The position numbers were made by a program, and so were the translations under genes. A stretch of 40,290 bases of DNA from Rubripirellula obstinata (GTDB taxonomy: Bacteria > Planctomycetota > Planctomycetia > Pirellulales > Pirellulaceae), in assembly GCF_001642955.1 (NCBI RefSeq), contig NZ_LWSK01000053.1, forward strand, positions 1 to 40,290, given 5' to 3'. Positions 31,459 through 40,290 of the stretch are shown here, piece after piece. Numbering within the stretch: position 1 is the stretch's first letter; every line of letters begins with the position of its first letter. The notes under the pieces were generated by a model, which was given only the letters and a program-made list of their open reading frames with translations, was not told the DNA's origin and searched no databases.

Positions 31459-33069
31459 TCACCGACGACTGCTAGGATTCCGACTCACTCGCAGCGATCG
31501 ATCGGCTCTGGATCGATCGACCCAGGCACCACCATCCCATGTGCTTCGTCCAGGAATGCGCCAATCCGATTCATCAACCTTGATAGAAGTCGCGTCAAGT
31601 TGCTTCAAGATTCGCTTAGCGCTTTGGTGGGGCAACTGCATCGTTACCAATTGTGACCAAGGTTCTTTTCGGACAATCGCGACGTGTTTGCCGACGCGTG
31701 TTACCTTCGCAGCCGCAAGGTCGTATTTCCAGATTGGAAGCCCGCGAAACTGGCTTGCCAGAATTCCGTTGCTGCTAAGCAGCATGTCATGATCGATCCA
31801 CGTTGGGGCACCTTGACCAAAGCTTTCGCGACTAGAAATGTCGGCATCCAACGCCGCGTCTACCAAATTCCAGATTCGCAAACGACGTGAAGTCACGATC
31901 GCCAACGCATTCCCGTAGGGGGAAAACGAAACGCCCGGCATTTGTGGTTCCACCTTGATCCGCCCAAGCGGCTTTCCAGTTTCAACCGCATACAAATCAA
32001 CGGCTCCGCTGGCAGGGACCGCCAGATAGCGTCCGCCTTCTGAAAGTGCTGGTTCGGATCGTGGGTCCACATGATCGATGCGAAAAACGGTCTCGCCAGA
32101 AACCAAGTTCCAAAGCACGATGCTGGACTTTAGTTGGGCGATCACATGCTGCGAATCGACAAGGTTTGCCCACAACAATTTCGGTGGCGACTGGCCCACC
32201 GAGGAATCAGCACCTGGCAATAGCTGTTGGGAAATCTGACGAACGTTGTCTTCGTTCCAGCCTTCGGCCAACGCGATCGAACCGCCTTCGCCCATGGTTC
32301 CATGCCCGGTCAACAACAACGATCGGCCACTGCCAATGTGATGATCCAGTAATCGCACGCGGCCTTTGCTTTGCATCGCGACGATCGACGATTGATCGCC
32401 GAAATCGAAACGGAGCAATTGACGGCGGGTGGCCTGGCCAGGAATCAGCGTATGCTCGCTAAGCGACACGGCGACCGACGTTTTACGTGTTTGCCAATCA
32501 TCCGTAACAACGATCGGAATCGGTGCAGAAACTTCATCGGCAAAATCAATTTCATCAATTGAAATCACAGCGTCGGTGCATCCGATTGACCATGGCGAAC
32601 AATCAGCTTCGGCTTCCTCGGGCAACTGGCGTCGCGGTCGAACAACGTTGTTTGATTCAAGGTTCAGTTGACCACCAAGACTTGGCGAAACGCGATCCTG
32701 ATCGACGGTCGTGCTTAGTGCCAGAACTGGCAAAGGGTCATGCTCGGGCGCTTCGGGTGGTCGTTGCCTTAGCCGATTGCCTTCGATGTCGCGTCGAAGG
32801 TGATCATCAATGAATTCGCGATCTTCTAAACTCAACTGATCAATCATCAGCGTCACGGTTCCGCCGTCCGATCGTCTTAGGATCACGAACTGTTGATCCT
32901 CGGTCACTCGCACCAGCGACGCATCAACCGAATGCAAACCGGATGAATCCACCCAGACGCGGTTGACTTGTTGAGCGGTCGCGGTGGTCGGTATCGCGAT
33001 CAGAAAGAATGCGCCGACCGCGAATGCTGAAGTAGCAAATCGGGAAACGCTAGTTGGTTTGAAAATCAT
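31459..33069 (-). CDS. exported SHD1-domain protein with WD40/PQQ-like propeller
   Basis: The ATG at 33069 gives 536 residues and a signal peptide (FATSAFAVGAFFLIAIPTTA, cleaved near TAQ). Residues about 37-90 form an SHD1 domain (RVWVDSSGLHSVDASLVRVT...), widespread in planctomycete exported proteins. The C-terminal half has WD/propeller-type repeats: HVIAQLKSSIVLWNLVSG, then DLYAVETGKPLGRIKVEP, then RLRIWNLVDAAL. A secreted binding or scaffold protein is likely; the ligand is unknown. It follows the HEAT lipoprotein by 19 nt, so one operon. The upstream frame to 33210 lies inside that gene. Confidence 0.8.
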   Translation of the reverse strand: MIFKPTSVSRFATSAFAVGAFFLIAIPTTATAQQVNRVWVDSSGLHSVDASLVRVTEDQQFVILRRSDGGTVTLMIDQLSLEDREFIDDHLRRDIEGNRLRQRPPEAPEHDPLPVLALSTTVDQDRVSPSLGGQLNLESNNVVRPRRQLPEEAEADCSPWSIGCTDAVISIDEIDFADEVSAPIPIVVTDDWQTRKTSVAVSLSEHTLIPGQATRRQLLRFDFGDQSSIVAMQSKGRVRLLDHHIGSGRSLLLTGHGTMGEGGSIALAEGWNEDNVRQISQQLLPGADSSVGQSPPKLLWANLVDSQHVIAQLKSSIVLWNLVSGETVFRIDHVDPRSEPALSEGGRYLAVPASGAVDLYAVETGKPLGRIKVEPQMPGVSFSPYGNALAIVTSRRLRIWNLVDAALDADISSRESFGQGAPTWIDHDMLLSSNGILASQFRGLPIWKYDLAAAKVTRVGKHVAIVRKEPWSQLVTMQLPHQSAKRILKQLDATSIKVDESDWRIPGRSTWDGGAWVDRSRADRSLRVSRNPSSRR

Positions 33070-33088
33070 CAGCGAATTTATTTTGAGA

Positions 33089-33871
33089 TTAGCGAAACAG
33101 ATCGTTGGCTCGATCAGCGATTTTCGTCGTTGCTTCACCGATAGGATTTGCCGGGTTCGCCGGTCCAGTGGGCTTGATGTCCAGGGCAGCGATCCACGTT
33201 TGCGGGTCATCGCCGTGATTTTCGCCGGTGACCCCGCGAAGCGAATCGATCACCAACGTTTGAGTCGCGGGATTGCGATCACGAAGCGCCGTTTTCAGCG
33301 AATCAATCGCGATGGGACTTTTGTGATTCGCCAGTGCCGAAATGGCAGCACGGCGAACGTCATCATTGGTTTCCGTTCCGACCGTCGCAGCCAACATACG
33401 AGCCGCCTCGGTGGCTTCATTTGATGCCAAAGTTGCATCGGACGCCAACGCTCGACAGGCTTCCATGCGTACTTTAAAGCTGTCGTCGTCGAGCCCTTTT
33501 TCGATCAAAGCAATCGAGGGTACGGCGTTCATGTTGCCAGCGGTCTGAATTGCTAAACGACGCATTTCCGGATTCTGATCGTTCTCCAGCATCGCGGTCA
33601 GGTGTTCGGTCCAGGTCTGTTGCCGCTCGGCGGGCATTGTCCCAATGGTTTCGGCGAGTGTCATCAGTTCTTCTCGCCGCTGATAATCAGTGACGCCCCG
33701 CTCTTTGTCTCGTTTCCAATCGCCCATCGCGTAGTACGGATTCGCGGCCTTCAAGGCATACATCGGCCCATCATGACAACCCGAAAGCGGGCCGATGATC
33801 GCGGCAACGCCAAGCAGGACGGCAAGTTGATAAATGGCAGAATTGTGAGCAGTCAAAGTAGGCACCAACAT
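33089..33871 (-). CDS. HEAT-repeat lipoprotein
   Basis: From the ATG at 33871, 260 residues. TTG 33937 and ATG 33934 are possible but the signal peptide is then too long. Signal: AIYQLAVLLGVAAIIGP, then lipobox LSGC with Cys32. The mature part (YYAMGDWKRDKERGVTDYQR, then repeats such as EMRRLAIQTAGNMNAVPSIA and VRRAAISALANHKSPIAIDS) is alpha-solenoid HEAT repeats, giving a protein-binding surface on the membrane. It precedes the SHD1-propeller gene; the two may act together at the cell envelope. Confidence 0.8.
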   Translation of the reverse strand: MLVPTLTAHNSAIYQLAVLLGVAAIIGPLSGCHDGPMYALKAANPYYAMGDWKRDKERGVTDYQRREELMTLAETIGTMPAERQQTWTEHLTAMLENDQNPEMRRLAIQTAGNMNAVPSIALIEKGLDDDSFKVRMEACRALASDATLASNEATEAARMLAATVGTETNDDVRRAAISALANHKSPIAIDSLKTALRDRNPATQTLVIDSLRGVTGENHGDDPQTWIAALDIKPTGPANPANPIGEATTKIADRANDLFR

Positions 33872-34858: not shown

Positions 34859-34873
34859 GTCGAATCACCTAAT
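34852..34873 (-). promoter_or_regulatory. Shine-Dalgarno overlapping the aroDE stop, sets the GNAT start
   Basis: On the minus strand TAGGTGATTCGAC precedes TTG: the TAG ends aroDE and the AGGTGA lies six bases before the GNAT TTG start. It is one of few convincing ribosome-binding sites here and decides the non-ATG start. Confidence 0.6.
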
Positions 34874-36359
34874 TCAATTGAACGGGGTTGGTCGCTTCCT
34901 TGATGGTTTTACGCATCAGATCGCTGGGGCCATCTTTGCCAGTAAACAATTTGTACTGATAAGCAGCTTGGCGAACGAACATGTCGATCCCAGTAATAAT
35001 TCGGCACTCTGCTTTCTTCGCGTACTTAATTAGAAGCGTATTCTCTGGATTGTAAACGGTGTCAAACACGGCAACGAATTGGTTCAACGCGTCCGCGTCA
35101 AACGGGCTGCGATCCACATCGGGATGCATGCCCACCGGTGTTCCGTTAACCAACAAGTTGATCCGCTGGTCGTGCCGCTGGTCCCACTCGATCGCACGGC
35201 AACCGATTTCTGCGGCCAGGATTTGAGACCGTTCCAATGTTCGCGACGCAATCAGAACTTCGCATTGACGTTGTTTCAGCCCCCAAGCGATGGCTCGGGA
35301 AACGCCACCGGCCCCCATCACCAACGCCGTCATTCCTTGCATCGGCCGCTCGGTACCTTTTTTGATCTTGAACAGTTCTTCAATGCAGTCCATCGCCGCG
35401 CGATAGTCGGTGTTGTACCCGTACACATCTTTATCCTGAAACACCATCGTGTTGACGGCACCGATCCCGGTCGCACTCGATTCAGCTCGATTGCAATGCT
35501 GCAACGCGCCCTCTTTATGCGGAATCGTAACGCTTAAGCCTTCAATCCCCAGCTCCTTGCAGTGAATCAGAAAAGTTCGCAAGTCGCTCTTGGGAATCCG
35601 AAACGGCAAGTACCGTGCATTGATGCCCTGATCCTGGAAAGCTCGATTGTGAATCATCGGACTGTAACTATGCGCGACCGGGTCAGCGACGACTCCGAAC
35701 AAGGCAGTTTCGTCATTGATTTCGTTGTAACGATACAACGATTTCATTTCCTTCCATTCCAATAATCCCGGCGCGATTTTTTTGTCTTTACTGAACGTCG
35801 CGTAGGTGAAGGGCGAACCTAGTTTGGCGGAAAGGATGCGCGTGATCATCCCCATTTCGCCCATGCAAATTCCAATGGTTGGAATCTTCGCATTTTTGAC
35901 CAAGTCCATCATTCGCAGATTGTCATCGAAGGCGTTTGCCATGGTCGCGATTTTGATGATGTCAGCATCTTCTTCGGCCATCGCCGCATGCAGCTCTTCA
36001 AGATTCTCGGGCGTTTCCTCGAAGTTGTGATAGCTGATGATTCGCTTGGTGGTTCCATAACGAGGAATCTGGGCGGCCACGTCGGCTTCGATGTCAACGT
36101 ATTCGACACCGGCCGCGATCGCACTGCGCAGCAGCGTCATGCGTTCGACCTCCGTTTTTAGCCAACGGCCGCCATCTTCGCGGCGGCGAGCGGTCACCAC
36201 GACGGGCGTTGGTCGATTGTCCAATAATCGTTTCAGGCTGACCGCACGGCCGATGTAATCAGTCCTCAACTCCACAAGCTCGGCCCCCTGGTCGGCCAAC
36301 TCCTTGTGCTCGTTGATCATTTTGGTGTGGCGGGCGCGGCCCAGAGTAACGCAAATCAT
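34869..36359 (-). CDS. aroDE: bifunctional 3-dehydroquinate dehydratase / shikimate dehydrogenase
   Basis: Carries out two consecutive shikimate-pathway steps. The ATG at 36359 begins MICVTLGRARHTKM; 496 residues. The type I dehydratase occupies about 1-215: His111 in RIISYHNFEETP (general base) and Schiff-base Lys136 in DIIKIATMAN. Shikimate dehydrogenase occupies about 220-485: FGVVADPVAHSYSPMIHN, Lys282 in SVTIPHKEGAL, Asn316/Asp318 in GYNTDYRAAMD, NADP loop GAGGVSRAIA (349-358), LLVNGTPVGMHP. The order aroD-aroE matches fusions known from planctomycetes, chlamydiae and plants. All catalytic residues are present. Confidence 0.95.
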   Translation of the reverse strand: MICVTLGRARHTKMINEHKELADQGAELVELRTDYIGRAVSLKRLLDNRPTPVVVTARRREDGGRWLKTEVERMTLLRSAIAAGVEYVDIEADVAAQIPRYGTTKRIISYHNFEETPENLEELHAAMAEEDADIIKIATMANAFDDNLRMMDLVKNAKIPTIGICMGEMGMITRILSAKLGSPFTYATFSKDKKIAPGLLEWKEMKSLYRYNEINDETALFGVVADPVAHSYSPMIHNRAFQDQGINARYLPFRIPKSDLRTFLIHCKELGIEGLSVTIPHKEGALQHCNRAESSATGIGAVNTMVFQDKDVYGYNTDYRAAMDCIEELFKIKKGTERPMQGMTALVMGAGGVSRAIAWGLKQRQCEVLIASRTLERSQILAAEIGCRAIEWDQRHDQRINLLVNGTPVGMHPDVDRSPFDADALNQFVAVFDTVYNPENTLLIKYAKKAECRIITGIDMFVRQAAYQYKLFTGKDGPSDLMRKTIKEATNPVQLN

Positions 36360-36522
36360 GTAAGGCAGATCACGGATGGCGATGAATAAGGAAATGGTGA
36401 ACAAACAAACAATGTCACAGCTTAATAATTCACCATGTTAGACACCAAGCACCCAAGGTGGAGGGGGGTTTTAGGTCGATCTCGAATGAGGGGTGGCAGG
36501 CATGTTGTTCAGCAAACGTTTT

Positions 36523-36776: not shown

Positions 36777-37904
36777 ATGATGCCTTCAAAATCACTTTGG
36801 ATTCAGCTTCGACCAACGATCGTGATCGCAAGTTTCCTGGCTTTAATGCTCACTTGGTCAACCGATCACTGCACCGCTGACGCCTTGCCACAGCAGGTTT
36901 TGCCCGATCAACTTGCCGTGCTTTGGGAATACGATTCAGGCGAAGCGATCGAAGCAGCACCGGCGGTTTCAAGCGGTCGCGTCTTTGTTGCCGACGTGAT
37001 GGGGAAAGTCACTGCAATCGATCAGCAGAGCGGTGCAAAGATCTGGAGCAAAGATTTTGGAACGGGATTCATCGCTTCCCCAGCAGTCCAAGGGGAAGTC
37101 CTGGTCATCGGTGACTTCGACGGCAATGTCTACGCGATGAGCACCGACGACGGGACTTTGAAATGGCAAACAAAAACCGATGGCGAAATCAATGGCTCGG
37201 TGACCTTCTACAAAGACACCGTCTTAGCGGCCAGCCAGGATGGCAACTTGTACTGTTACAAGTTGAATGATGGCGCGCTGAAATGGACTTACGAAACCGG
37301 CGACCAGATTCGTTGCAGTCCGACCGTCGCTGGCAATCGAACCTTCCTGGGCGGTTGCGATGCAAAGCTGCATATTGTCGATTTGGACACCGGCAAAGCC
37401 GCGTCCGAACCCTTGCCGCTTGGTGGTCCGACCGGCAGCACGCCGGCTGTACAAGGCGATCAAGTTTTTGTTCCGATCATGGACGGTGCCGTGTACGCGT
37501 TTGATTGGAAAACACAGAAGCAAACCTGGATGCACGAAGACGAAGAAACCCAACAAGAGTACCGCAACAGTCCCGCAGTGACCGATCAAGTCGTTATCCT
37601 AAGCAGTGCAAGAAAACAGGTAGACGCGTTATCAATCAAAACAGGAAAGCCATTGTGGCGTTACACACTGAGACGTCGCGCCGATGCGTCACCCGTCATC
37701 GCCGGTCAAGATGTTTTCATCGCGGGAACTGATGGCCGATTGGTTCGATTGAAAACCAAAGATGGATCGATCGCAAAATGGAGCTTCGAGATTCGCGGTT
37801 CCTTTGTTGCCGGTCCAACGATCGCGAACCAACACTTGTTCATCGCCGATGATAAAGGAGTGGTTCGTTGCTTTGGATCAAAAGATGTCTCAGCTAAACA
37901 GTGA
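36777..37904 (+). CDS. exported PQQ-like beta-propeller protein (BamB-type fold)
   Basis: 375 residues with signal peptide (TIVIASFLALMLTWSTDHCT). The mature part is a run of propeller blades: VSSGRVFVADVMGKVTAID, QSGAKIWSKDFGTGFIASP, DGNVYAMSTDDGTLKWQTK, DGNLYCYKLNDGALKWTYE, GAVYAFDWKTQKQTWMHE, and so on. The repeated 'GxLYAlDxxTGxxxW' shape gives about seven blades. PQQ-binding residues are not evident, so a scaffold or sorting role, as for BamB, is as likely as a dehydrogenase. Two adjoining ATGs (36777, 36780) start it. The gene ends 52 nt before the radical SAM gene and may be co-transcribed with it. Confidence 0.85.
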   Translation: MMPSKSLWIQLRPTIVIASFLALMLTWSTDHCTADALPQQVLPDQLAVLWEYDSGEAIEAAPAVSSGRVFVADVMGKVTAIDQQSGAKIWSKDFGTGFIASPAVQGEVLVIGDFDGNVYAMSTDDGTLKWQTKTDGEINGSVTFYKDTVLAASQDGNLYCYKLNDGALKWTYETGDQIRCSPTVAGNRTFLGGCDAKLHIVDLDTGKAASEPLPLGGPTGSTPAVQGDQVFVPIMDGAVYAFDWKTQKQTWMHEDEETQQEYRNSPAVTDQVVILSSARKQVDALSIKTGKPLWRYTLRRRADASPVIAGQDVFIAGTDGRLVRLKTKDGSIAKWSFEIRGSFVAGPTIANQHLFIADDKGVVRCFGSKDVSAKQ

Positions 37905-37956: not shown

Positions 37957-39282
37957 ATGTCCTCTTCAACGCCACCCAGCAGTACCGAAAAAACAGAAGT
38001 CGGCAGCTATTTCATTTCCAACTATCCGCCTTACAGTCAGTGGAACAAGGACCAATTGCCAGCGGTGGAAACGGCGTTGCATTCGCCCGCGATCGAAAAG
38101 ACGCCGCTTGGCCTTTATCTGCATATTCCGTTTTGCCGCAAACGTTGCAAGTTCTGTTACTTCAAAGTCTTCACCGATGTGAATGCGGCTGAAGTCACTC
38201 GGTACGTCGATGCATTGTGCAACGAAATTTCGATGGTCAGCGAATTGGAAATCATGAGCGACCGTCCGTTTCGATTCGTCTACTTTGGTGGCGGAACCCC
38301 CAGTTTTCTTTCTCCCAAACAACTGACAAAGTTGGCTGACCGACTGCGTCAGCACATCACATGGGATGGTGCCGAAGAGGTCACCTTTGAATGTGAGCCC
38401 GGAACGCTTAGCGAAACGAAAGTCAAAACGCTTCGCGACGTCTTAGGAGTCACGCGAGTCAGCTTGGGCATCGAAAATTTCTCCGACAAAATTCTCGAAG
38501 ACAACGGACGCGCCCACCTTTCCAAGCAAGTCTTCAATGCTTGGGACTGGATCACGGATGCCGATTTCCCCAACGTCAACATCGACTTGATTTCAGGAAT
38601 GGTGGGCGAGACCTGGGAAAACTGGAAAATCAATGTTGAAAAAACCATTGAGTTGTCGCCCGAAAGCGTGACGATCTACCAGATGGAACTACCGTTCAAT
38701 ACGGTTTACAGCAAAGACATCCTTGGCAACAAAACCGAGAGCCCGGTTGCGGATTGGCGAACCAAACGTGATTGGGTCGAGTACGCGTTCGACGAGTTCC
38801 AGAAGGTTGGATACAGCGTCAGCAGTGCTTACACCGTCGTCAAAGATCCAGCCAAGGTGAATTTCAGCTATCGCGATAACCTTTGGCAAGGCGCTGATTT
38901 GTTGGCCACCGGCATCGCCAGTTTTGGACACGCCAGCGGCGTGCATTATCAAAACGTTGCTGACTTGGAAAAGTATCTTTCCACTGTTGAATCAGGCGTC
39001 TTGCCACTCGGCCGCGGATTCCGTCCAACCGATCACCAGAAACTCGTTCGTGAAATGATTCTGTTGCTCAAACGCGGTTACTTGGACACCGCGTATTTCA
39101 AAAACAAATTTGATGTCGATGTTTTGCAGCATTGGAAATCGGTTTGGGACGACTACGCCGAGCAGGATCTCGCCAACGTTAATGGCGATCGAATCGAATT
39201 GACCACCGAAGGATTGTTGCGGGTCGATTCACTGTTGCCAGCGTTCTTTGAACCCGAGCATCAAGGAGTTCGCTACACGTGA
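37957..39282 (+). CDS. HemN/HemW-like radical SAM protein
   Basis: 441 residues. Radical SAM iron-sulfur motif Cys60-x3-Cys64-x2-Cys67 in LYLHIPFCRKRCKFCYFKV, then FVYFGGGTPSFLSPKQL and FECEPGTL, VTRVSLGIENFSDKIL, NIDLISGMVGETWENW: the order of the coproporphyrinogen-oxidase-like family (HemN/HemW). The C-terminal part (LLKRGYLDTAYFKNKFDVDV) also fits the family's winged end. Canonical HemW has CxF plus Asp after the cluster; here Tyr (CYFKVF) follows, marking a distinct subgroup. It could be a haem chaperone, oxidase or another SAM enzyme. The stop overlaps the next start by 4 nt (GTGA). Confidence 0.85.
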   Translation: MSSSTPPSSTEKTEVGSYFISNYPPYSQWNKDQLPAVETALHSPAIEKTPLGLYLHIPFCRKRCKFCYFKVFTDVNAAEVTRYVDALCNEISMVSELEIMSDRPFRFVYFGGGTPSFLSPKQLTKLADRLRQHITWDGAEEVTFECEPGTLSETKVKTLRDVLGVTRVSLGIENFSDKILEDNGRAHLSKQVFNAWDWITDADFPNVNIDLISGMVGETWENWKINVEKTIELSPESVTIYQMELPFNTVYSKDILGNKTESPVADWRTKRDWVEYAFDEFQKVGYSVSSAYTVVKDPAKVNFSYRDNLWQGADLLATGIASFGHASGVHYQNVADLEKYLSTVESGVLPLGRGFRPTDHQKLVREMILLLKRGYLDTAYFKNKFDVDVLQHWKSVWDDYAEQDLANVNGDRIELTTEGLLRVDSLLPAFFEPEHQGVRYT

Positions 39283-39773
39283 GCGGCAATGCAAACGGCG
39301 CAAACAACGACCAAGCGTTTGAATTCGCAATGGGCGAACACAACGCCAAGTTTCCTGGCGACCGCGTTTATGTGACCAATCACATGTGGGCAATGAATAC
39401 TGGCGGCGAAAGCTATCGGTTTGGATTGACGGCTTACGCGGTAAGGTTGCTGCAGGATGTCTATTTTTTGGACTGGCTTGTTGAACCTGGAACCCACGTC
39501 AAATCACGCGGACACATCGGTTCAATCGAAAGCAAGAAAGCTGAAAGCGATCTCTACGCCCCCATCGCAGGCGTTATGAGTGCGATCAATGAAGTGGCAC
39601 TCGACGATCCCTCGATCATCAATGCAGACACCTATGACGACGGCTGGTTGATCGAAATCCAAGCGGACCAAGGACAGGCTGATTCGCTTTTGTCACCTGA
39701 CCAGTATGCTGAACATCTTGTCGCCGCATGGGATGTCGCCCAGAAAACGATTAAGGGACAAGCGAACGTTTAA
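39279..39773 (+). CDS. divergent GcvH-like lipoyl-domain protein
   Basis: 164 residues from a GTG (39279), coupled to the SAM gene by GTGA overlap. The lipoyl attachment segment IGSIESKKAESDLYAPIAG (Lys87 the expected lipoyl-lysine, cf. 'AESVKAASDIYAP' in GcvH) is kept, and the surrounding fold (GLTAYAVRLLQDVYFLDWLV, then NADTYDDGWLIEIQADQ) fits glycine-cleavage H protein. However, the N-terminus (YVTNHMWAMNTGGESYRFG) departs from the normal 'EHEWI' signature. No other glycine-cleavage gene (T, P, L) is adjacent, so a specialised lipoate carrier, partner of the SAM enzyme, is suggested. Confidence 0.82.
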   Translation: MSGNANGANNDQAFEFAMGEHNAKFPGDRVYVTNHMWAMNTGGESYRFGLTAYAVRLLQDVYFLDWLVEPGTHVKSRGHIGSIESKKAESDLYAPIAGVMSAINEVALDDPSIINADTYDDGWLIEIQADQGQADSLLSPDQYAEHLVAAWDVAQKTIKGQANV

Positions 39774-39782
39774 GACGCAGTT

Positions 39783-39950
39783 TAGTCCTGGAGGGACGGA
39801 AGCTCTCTGCCGGGGATGTAAATCCCCGGATGGCAGCGTTCTATCTCACCAATTCTCTGTCTCGGTTTCGCGGCGTAGCCGCGAAACCGAGACAGAGAAT
39901 TGATGTGGGGCAGCCATCCGGGTGCTCGCGTACCCGGCAGGGAGCTGCCG
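39783..39950. repeat. composite spacer element, AGTCCTGGAGGGACG type, copy 2
   Basis: Begins AGTCCTGGAGGGACGGAAGC at 39784-39803, followed by the small palindrome CCGGGGAT-gta-AATCCCCGG (about 39810-39829), a perfect 24-bp stem at 39851-39874 / 39878-39901 (loop GTA), then CCGGGTGCTCGCGTACCCGG and GGGAGCTG. Outer parts match 20120-20450; the inner stem differs. No gene. Confidence 0.6.
39851..39901. repeat. 24-bp perfect hairpin
   Basis: Arms 39851-39874 (AATTCTCTGTCTCGG...) and 39878-39901, loop GTA. It is AT-flanked and lies 78 bp after the GcvH-like gene. It may serve as its 3' end structure. No U-run. Confidence 0.6.
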
Positions 39951-39953
39951 ATT

Positions 39954-40073
39954 GGCCTGATGAAAATCATTGCAACGCAGCAAACTGTGCAAGCTGCACC
40001 ATGGCAGACAACACAAACTGCTGCGCTGTGAAGCATTGTGGCAACGGCACATTTCCCTGACCGCCAGCATGTA
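39954..40073. repeat. 217-bp direct repeat, unit 1 variable part
   Basis: The 120 bp starting GGCCTGATGAAAATCATTGC recur from 40170 to the window end with few changes and one inserted base. They flank the hairpin at 40071-40146. A 19-codon frame from ATG 40001 (MADNTN...) to TGA 40058-40060 exists in this copy and, with replacements at Cys positions, in the second. Confidence 0.7.
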
Positions 40074-40169: not shown

Positions 40170-40290
40170 GGCCTGATGAAAAACATTGCAACGCAGCAAA
40201 ATTGGGCAAGCTGCACCATGGCAGACAACACAAACTGCAGCGCTGGGAAGCATAGTGGCAACGGCACATTTCCCTGATCGCCAGCATGTA
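40170..40290. repeat. 217-bp direct repeat, unit 2 (cut by the window edge)
   Basis: Matches 39954-40073 closely (GGCCTGATGAAAAACATTGC...), ending ...CGCCAGCATGTA, the same boundary that precedes the hairpin in unit 1. The period is 216-217 bp. It shows a tandem array, at least two units, running out of the window. Confidence 0.7.

Follow-up and report, generated by a model that had tools for sequence, protein, structure and literature searches.

A GcvH-like lipoyl-domain protein and a HemN-family radical SAM protein as candidate members of one planctomycete cyclised-terpenoid pathway

The two genes at the center of this report overlap near the end of a 40,290-nucleotide stretch of DNA (the window), which is contig C257 of a planctomycete genome of 6.58 Mb in 307 contigs. 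One encodes a radical SAM protein of the HemN family (here, the enzyme) and the other a GcvH-like protein with a lipoyl domain (here, H-like). Our leading reading, to which we give about even weight, is that H-like serves as a dedicated lipoyl carrier, that the enzyme is a two-SAM protein of the HemN type, and that both belong to a single planctomycete pathway to a cyclised terpenoid. The steadier gene neighbor of H-like across families is a ferredoxin-like protein, and the enzyme also occurs in genomes that lack H-like.

Gene run in the window

Three genes on the same strand follow one another in the order beta-propeller, enzyme, H-like, and are succeeded by inverted and direct repeats. The features are as follows.

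36777..37904, + strand: BamB/PQQ-type beta-propeller protein (PF13570/PF13360), first gene of the conserved three-gene run; the N-terminus is signal-like as judged by eye only
37957..39282, + strand: HemN-family radical SAM protein (the enzyme), 441 aa, ATG start, class C-like by sequence, unnamed family (PF04055, 70.5 bits)
38134..38157, + strand: CxxxCxxC [4Fe-4S]/SAM motif, C60-x3-C64-x2-C67 followed by Tyr68, invariant in 11 aligned orthologs
38869..38886, + strand: YRDNLW at the position of the HNxxYW of HemW, from a motif scan and alignment with the genome's own HemW (HNRAYW)
39279..39282, + strand: GTGA overlap of the enzyme stop and the H-like start, from the ORF coordinates
39279..39773, + strand: GcvH-like lipoyl-domain protein (H-like), 164 aa, GTG start (PF01597, 85.9 bits)
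39378..39389, + strand: NHMW (residues 34-37) where THEW/EHEW is usual, from an alignment of 93 H-like rows
39537..39539, + strand: Lys87, predicted lipoyl attachment site, present in 93/93 H-like and 23/23 canonical rows
39696..39764, + strand: C-terminal extension with W151 and QRTIKGQ, near-invariant in 93 H-like rows; residues 140-162 form a helix in the AlphaFold model
39847..39905, no strand assigned: inverted repeat of 28 nt with 96% complementarity, lying beyond the three-gene run; candidate terminator or repeat element (repeat scan)

The sequence-only reading of this DNA had picked out the GTGA overlap, the tyrosine after the cluster, the retained lipoyl lysine, and the altered EHEW region, and all four stand: the reading frames overlap as given, Tyr68 is found in every ortholog aligned, Lys87 aligns with the lipoyl lysine in all 93 distinct H-like sequences, and NHMW replaces the canonical planctomycete THEW. 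The beta-propeller gene is the third member of the same conserved run, lying directly upstream of the enzyme gene in 57 of 76 testable named loci (among the best 80 of at least 587).

Beyond the run, a 92-nt direct repeat, 93% identical, occupies positions 39982-40073 and 40199-40290, with a 39-nt inverted repeat between its two copies; the second copy ends on the last base of the window, and these repeats are perhaps the reason that the contig stops there. On the opposite strand, at 34869-36404, lies a gene for a fused type I dehydroquinase-shikimate dehydrogenase that is syntenic in the window's closest relatives. We considered and dropped a functional tie between shikimate genes and the pair: among the matches listed, 8 loci show this neighbor, all from the window and its genus, as do the named loci most closely related to it, a restriction that points to plain synteny. 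Farther away, a 583-aa protein (31459-33210) has a match above the cut-off to SLA1 homology domain 1 (SHD1).

The radical SAM protein

Radical_SAM (PF04055) is the only Pfam family matched by the enzyme. Its NCBIfam scores (HutW, 190 bits; HemN, 185; STM4012, 176; HemW, 154) all lie below the respective cut-offs, and so the earlier description of the protein as HemN/HemW-like holds for the HemN family but not for HemW in particular, which scores no better than the other three. The HemW model TIGR00539 has a cut-off of 205.4 bits; the enzyme reaches 154.1 and a second protein of the same genome, encoded on contig C300, reaches 274.9. The C300 protein is HemW proper, has HNRAYW at the motif position, and is 27% identical to the enzyme. 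Since an HNxxYW-bearing protein above the cut-off is encoded there, the enzyme, which has no HNxxYW, is not an ordinary HemW. According to the excerpts of PMC10320005 on which we draw, HNxxYW is the heme-binding motif of HemW, and GPRYTSYPTA, RNFQGYTT, and CX3CX2CXC are motifs of HemN. A motif scan found neither of the HemN substrate motifs GPRYTSYPTA and RNFQGYTT in the enzyme, and its cluster reads CxxxCxxCYF, so that the fourth Cys of the HemN motif is absent.

Among proteins of solved structure, sequence comparison identified two relatives, HemN (1olt) and NocN (9p2u), the latter a class C methylase. In NocN, residues Y34, Y96, R153, R171, D196, and S225 contact SAM-I/SAM-II (PMC12871812, in part); mapped by hand through a sequence alignment, they correspond in the enzyme to Y54, Y109, R167, R185, D210, and T239, which vary little or not at all across 15 aligned rows. 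The enzyme thus has the CxxxCxxC motif and the two-SAM contact residues expected of class C methylases, but most of these contacts are also present in HemW and are not specific, and we take them as support for a two-SAM HemN architecture rather than as proof of methylase activity. The six signature motifs of the menaquinone methylases MenK/MqnK (Wilkens 2021, as quoted in excerpts of PMC10320005) are matched exactly in only one case, so that the enzyme does not bear the signature of that group. The Gln of RxSxGxQxF is a Glu in the enzyme family (GxENF), invariant in 11 orthologs, and other family marks are an N-terminal TEVGxYFISNYPPFSxW, CYF after the cluster, and a C-terminal PEHQxxRYT. On these residues we describe the enzyme as class C-like, a putative two-SAM enzyme that may transfer a SAM-derived carbon. 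Paralogues with 37-42% identity (L111-L114) occur in some members of the phylum (G095, G103, G197, and G227), and these have different neighbors.

The GcvH-like protein

H-like has the GCV_H fold by prediction (PF01597) together with the lipoyl lysine. Its AlphaFold model has a pLDDT of 91.3, and the best Foldseek match is the H-protein 1onl, with a TM score of 0.71 by query length and 0.91 by target length. The scores against the curated GcvH models are below the cut-offs, at 93.3 versus 115.85 for TIGR00527 and 101.5 versus 117 for PRK01202, and the GcvH encoded on contig C91 of the same genome passes both (134.3 and 146.6).

For a comparison of the two kinds of protein, identical rows were removed, leaving 93 of 116 H-like rows (defined as matches of >110 bits, with the divergent copies of family f63 excluded) and 23 of 24 canonical rows. 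Asn34 is found in 92/93 H-like rows and Met36 in 87/93 (one row being gapped); the canonical proteins have Thr in 20/23 and Glu in 22/23 at these positions. In GcvH, this Glu has a role in holding the aminomethyl arm. Both ends of H-like appear to be its own: MG near the N-terminus and, at the C-terminus, W151 and QRTIKGQ are almost invariant across the 93 sequences, and columns 155-161 of the tail are gapped in 22 of the 23 canonical copies. A tree of every third H-like row, the window protein, and the phylum-sample rows also sets H-like apart, with a support of 92/34 for the split from all 26 canonical rows and 99/94 for the split from 25 of them, the remaining row (L209) being on a very long branch.

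No gcv genes were seen beside the enzyme/H-like pair, as had been stated earlier, and the search for a separate glycine-cleavage (GCV) system that the sequence-only reading had proposed found gcvT-gcvH on C91, both products above the cut-offs, and gcvP on C188. H-like is thus not the sole GcvH of the cell and is not needed to complete the GCV set. The genome has two LplA/LipB-type genes, one beside gcvH on C91 and the second on C221. In the C91 locus (L217, 2517-4704), the genes for GcvT, GcvH, and the LplA/LipB-type protein adjoin, i.e., the canonical GCV locus has a lipoate ligase-like gene of its own.

Conservation and co-occurrence of the pair

H-like lies just 3' of the enzyme in 64 of the 80 named loci that match best among at least 587, nearly all of them from the window's order, and starts in these 64 between 25 bases inside and 296 bases after the enzyme match. 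In one of the 16 loci of this set without H-like (L135), the available sequence runs out after a further 196 bases; the genomes of 10 of the 16 were searched, and 3 have H-like elsewhere and 7 have GcvH-type matches only at the canonical level. In the window genome and 39 relatives, an H-like match with E ≤ 1e-35 is present in 32/40 and some GcvH-type match in 40/40, and the enzyme is directly upstream in all 29 H-like loci fetched from the relatives, L026 showing only the end of the enzyme. CA13 (L122) has an enzyme of 82% identity, yet neither H-like nor the ferredoxin-like protein was found there. The sequence-only reading had named two outcomes that would speak against it, namely, a pair that is not conserved, or a sole GcvH beside an ordinary HemW; the pair is conserved in the window's order and GcvH, GcvT, GcvP, and HemW have genes elsewhere, so that neither was found.

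Across 294 genomes of the phylum, the enzyme (E ≤ 1e-60) is present in 60, one of which (G314, 33% identity) is doubtful, and H-like is present in 27 by the criterion that the alignment reaches its tail. Of 41 matches, 14 were classed as canonical GcvH because their alignments do not extend past query residue 159 and so miss the tail; one of these (G064, ending at residue 136) could be a divergent H-like. The enzyme is present in 26 of the 27 H-like genomes; the exception, G316, is an 86% complete assembly in 1010 contigs. The Fisher value of 1.4e-19 ignores relatedness and is not a probability. The 27 genomes come from only four families (4 from f1, 15 from f18, 6 from f63, and 2 from f66), and the co-occurrence therefore amounts to few independent events. 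In the other direction, H-like is absent by the tail criterion from 34 of the 60 enzyme-bearing genomes. The two genes are adjacent in 5 of the 26 genomes with both (four of the window's family, the window genome included, plus G100 of f66) and not adjacent in 21. The enzyme surroundings alone had suggested that H-like is limited to the window's order plus one genome, a notion overturned by the finds in f18, f63, and f66.

Neighbors of the GcvH-like gene

Three neighbors stay beside H-like more steadily than the enzyme does: a ferredoxin-like protein, a class II terpene cyclase with the DxDD motif, and a DUF116-polyprenyl synthase fusion. Two 4Fe-4S motifs mark the ferredoxin-like protein, whose long N-terminal region is unassigned. 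In the phylum sample, with the window genome left out, its gene lies no more than 1.5 kb from H-like in 20 of 26 loci (22 including two cut at the locus edge) and directly after H-like in 32 of 55 testable named loci (among the best 80 of at least 587). Strong matches to it were found in 13/13 genomes with H-like versus 0/14 without, the latter including weak matches in 3/14.

The run of H-like, ferredoxin-like, cyclase, and DUF116/polyprenyl synthase genes is present in 9 of 13 H-like regions fetched, sometimes with inserted genes, and occurs in Pirellulales and in families f18, f63, and f66. DxDD is kept in 10/10 cyclase copies, and both CxxCGxC and DDxxD are kept in 10/10 DUF116 fusions. 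In some loci, the module contains or adjoins genes for a CobW-type GTPase, for a radical SAM protein other than the enzyme, and for a second alpha-alpha toroid protein. The additional radical SAM protein, seen in or near the module of two other families (L278, 11544-12881; L281, 5277-6734), has a motif context unrelated to that in the window. The fusion of DUF116 (CxxCGxC) with polyprenyl synthase is found in several planctomycete families, e.g., L077 (4725-6572) and relatives; our literature search on DUF116 function found nothing useful.

In Pirellulales, the cyclase/DUF116 run can join the enzyme's own cluster of genes for an AMP-ligase-like protein, an aldehyde dehydrogenase, an iron alcohol dehydrogenase, and the beta-propeller protein. 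The AMP-ligase-like assignment comes from a sub-threshold PF00501 match, and one ferredoxin-like representative is likewise below Pfam cut-offs. Among the best 80 of at least 587 named loci, the ligase and both dehydrogenases are present together in 29 of 60 testable loci, and the terpene cyclase (SHC) with the DUF116 fusion in only 4 of 50. Neighbors of about 390 and 480 aa had been read from their length as heme genes; they are actually the iron alcohol dehydrogenase and the aldehyde dehydrogenase.

Other families have several loci in which genes for a chorismate-lyase-like protein and a flavin halogenase/geranylgeranyl-reductase-like protein come after the enzyme, with thioesterase, glycosyltransferase, and ABC genes behind them. 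A chorismate-lyase-like gene also comes after the H-like module in several loci. The AlphaFold model of the chorismate-lyase-like protein (pLDDT 93, from a six-row alignment) matches the DUF98 protein 2nwi at TM 0.71 and chorismate lyase 1g81 less well, at TM 0.57, and 2 of 10 members give sub-threshold Pfam matches. GntR effector domains have the same fold, and so we treat chorismate lyase activity as a lead from modeling and not as a result. The search of the window genome for pathway parts covered the following, all of which it has on scattered contigs: the ligase and aldehyde dehydrogenase on C258, the ferredoxin-like protein on C266, the cyclase, DUF116, and chorismate-lyase-like genes on C295, and an FAD enzyme encoded next to HemW on C300.

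Proposed function and alternatives

We propose that H-like would be a carrier recruited from the H-protein family that has left glycine cleavage and serves a cyclised-terpenoid pathway together with its own ferredoxin-like protein. Lys87 would be lipoylated, and the lipoyl arm would carry substrate or electrons. The enzyme would bind two SAM molecules and modify an intermediate of that pathway by one-carbon or radical chemistry like that of class C methylases. The pathway would yield a cyclised terpenoid that probably includes an aromatic part of the 4-hydroxybenzoate type. Several observations favor this reading: the tree split and conserved ends of H-like, its co-occurrence with the enzyme, its ferredoxin-like partner, the module run, the chorismate-lyase-like gene behind it in several loci, the parts located in the window genome, the mapped NocN SAM contacts, and the two LplA/LipB-type genes. 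They must be set against the 34 enzyme-bearing genomes without H-like, CA13, the 21 genomes in which the pair is not adjacent, the restriction to four families, the scarcity of the cyclase and DUF116 genes in the named loci, the SAM contacts common to HemW, and the sub-threshold Pfam scores of the ligase and of one ferredoxin-like representative.

The sequence-only reading had suggested that the enzyme could act directly on, or draw sulfur or electrons from, a lipoyl-bound intermediate on H-like. The gene overlap in the window, the close adjacency in those 64 of the best 80 named loci (of at least 587), and the 26 of 27 co-occurrence all fit such a reaction, the conserved extra ends of H-like could dock a partner, and the structure of human LIAS with H-protein (PDB 8ugo, in part) indicates that a radical SAM enzyme can dock an H-protein. 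As stated, however, the claim is not supported: more than half of the enzyme-bearing genomes lack H-like by the tail criterion, and in other families it lies apart from the enzyme, next to ferredoxin-like and terpenoid genes, which makes a direct reaction of the enzyme with the lipoyl group only one option. In f18 and f63, where the H-like gene lies elsewhere than the enzyme, the tail is much the same and thus does not depend on linkage between the two. We consider direct action possible but unlikely. Less likely still is an assembly line for a cyclised terpenoid or meroterpenoid whose intermediates would be held on the lipoyl arm of H-like as a dedicated carrier, where the two-SAM enzyme, fed by a private ferredoxin, would modify them. 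In a comparably doubtful alternative, dihydrolipoyl-H-like and the ferredoxin-like protein would form an electron relay for a terpenoid or radical step, with no covalent cargo; their co-occurrence and the short distance between the two genes agree with this, but lipoamide is too weak a reductant to cleave SAM.

H-like might pass sulfur on its lipoyl arm toward a sulfur-containing product, in the manner of LbpA of the sHdr pathway, which is likewise a GcvH paralogue apart from GCV (PMC6067878, in excerpt); no hdr-like gene was recognized among the annotated neighbors, the ferredoxin part gives only sub-threshold HdrA matches, and a dedicated lipoate ligase was not seen beside H-like, one of the two LplA-type genes lying beside gcvH. 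We find this explanation very improbable. The pair might, finally, be a spare GcvH beside a HemW-like heme chaperone, given the retained GCV_H fold and lysine and the HemN superfamily membership. The replacement of Glu by Met in (T/E)HEW in 87/93 rows, the canonical GcvH, GcvT, and GcvP elsewhere in the genome, the absence of HNxxYW, and the HemW above the cut-off on C300 leave this strongly disfavored and the least credible of the explanations.

If the shared pathway is real, several unnamed gene families of a large phylum gain a common role that can be tested by knockouts and lipid analysis. Gene order connects H-like with a ferredoxin-like protein, a class II terpene cyclase, a DUF116-prenyl synthase fusion, and a class C-like enzyme, and this would be a new use of the cofactor if H-like is lipoylated. 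A 2018 count lists five characterized lipoate-dependent complexes plus the LbpA proteins of sulfur oxidation (excerpts of PMC6067878); the assembly line, if true, would make lipoic acid a substrate carrier in secondary or lipid metabolism.

Comparison with known systems

Among GcvH-derived carriers, H-like shares with GcvH itself the predicted fold and the lipoyl lysine and differs in the Glu-to-Met change, the conserved N- and C-terminal extensions, the lack of gcv neighbors, and the sub-cut-off TIGR00527 and PRK01202 scores. It resembles LbpA of sHdr sulfur oxidation as a GcvH paralogue dedicated to another pathway (PMC6067878, in part), but its gene neighbors encode a ferredoxin-like protein, a terpene cyclase, and a prenyl synthase, and no hdr-like gene was recognized beside it.

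The enzyme is in the same superfamily as HemW and HemN but has neither the HemW motif nor the substrate motifs and fourth Cys of HemN. With the class C radical SAM methylases (NosN/NocN, MenK/MqnK, C10P, and HutW/ChuW), it shares the CxxxCxxC motif, a HemN-family sequence, and the NocN SAM-contact residues; it differs in scoring below every matched NCBIfam cut-off, in having Glu for the Gln of RxSxGxQxF, in matching one of six menaquinone-methylase motifs, and in its gene context.

The sequence-only reading knew of no characterized example of such a couple. This stands for the pair and its cluster, of which no description was found in the literature searched by title and abstract start, but not for radical SAM enzymes and H-proteins at large. 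Lipoyl synthase, itself of the radical SAM class, acts on H-protein, as in human LIAS with H-protein (PDB 8ugo), and aminomethyl-lipoyl-H-protein takes part with HydE/HydG in [FeFe]-hydrogenase maturation (PMC11736057 and PMC12752695), as far as the excerpted sources go. Both LIAS/LipA and HydE/HydG are thus radical SAM enzymes that work with H-protein; the H-protein used there, according to the same excerpts, is that of glycine cleavage, whereas the protein described here is a separate paralogue without the conserved Glu.
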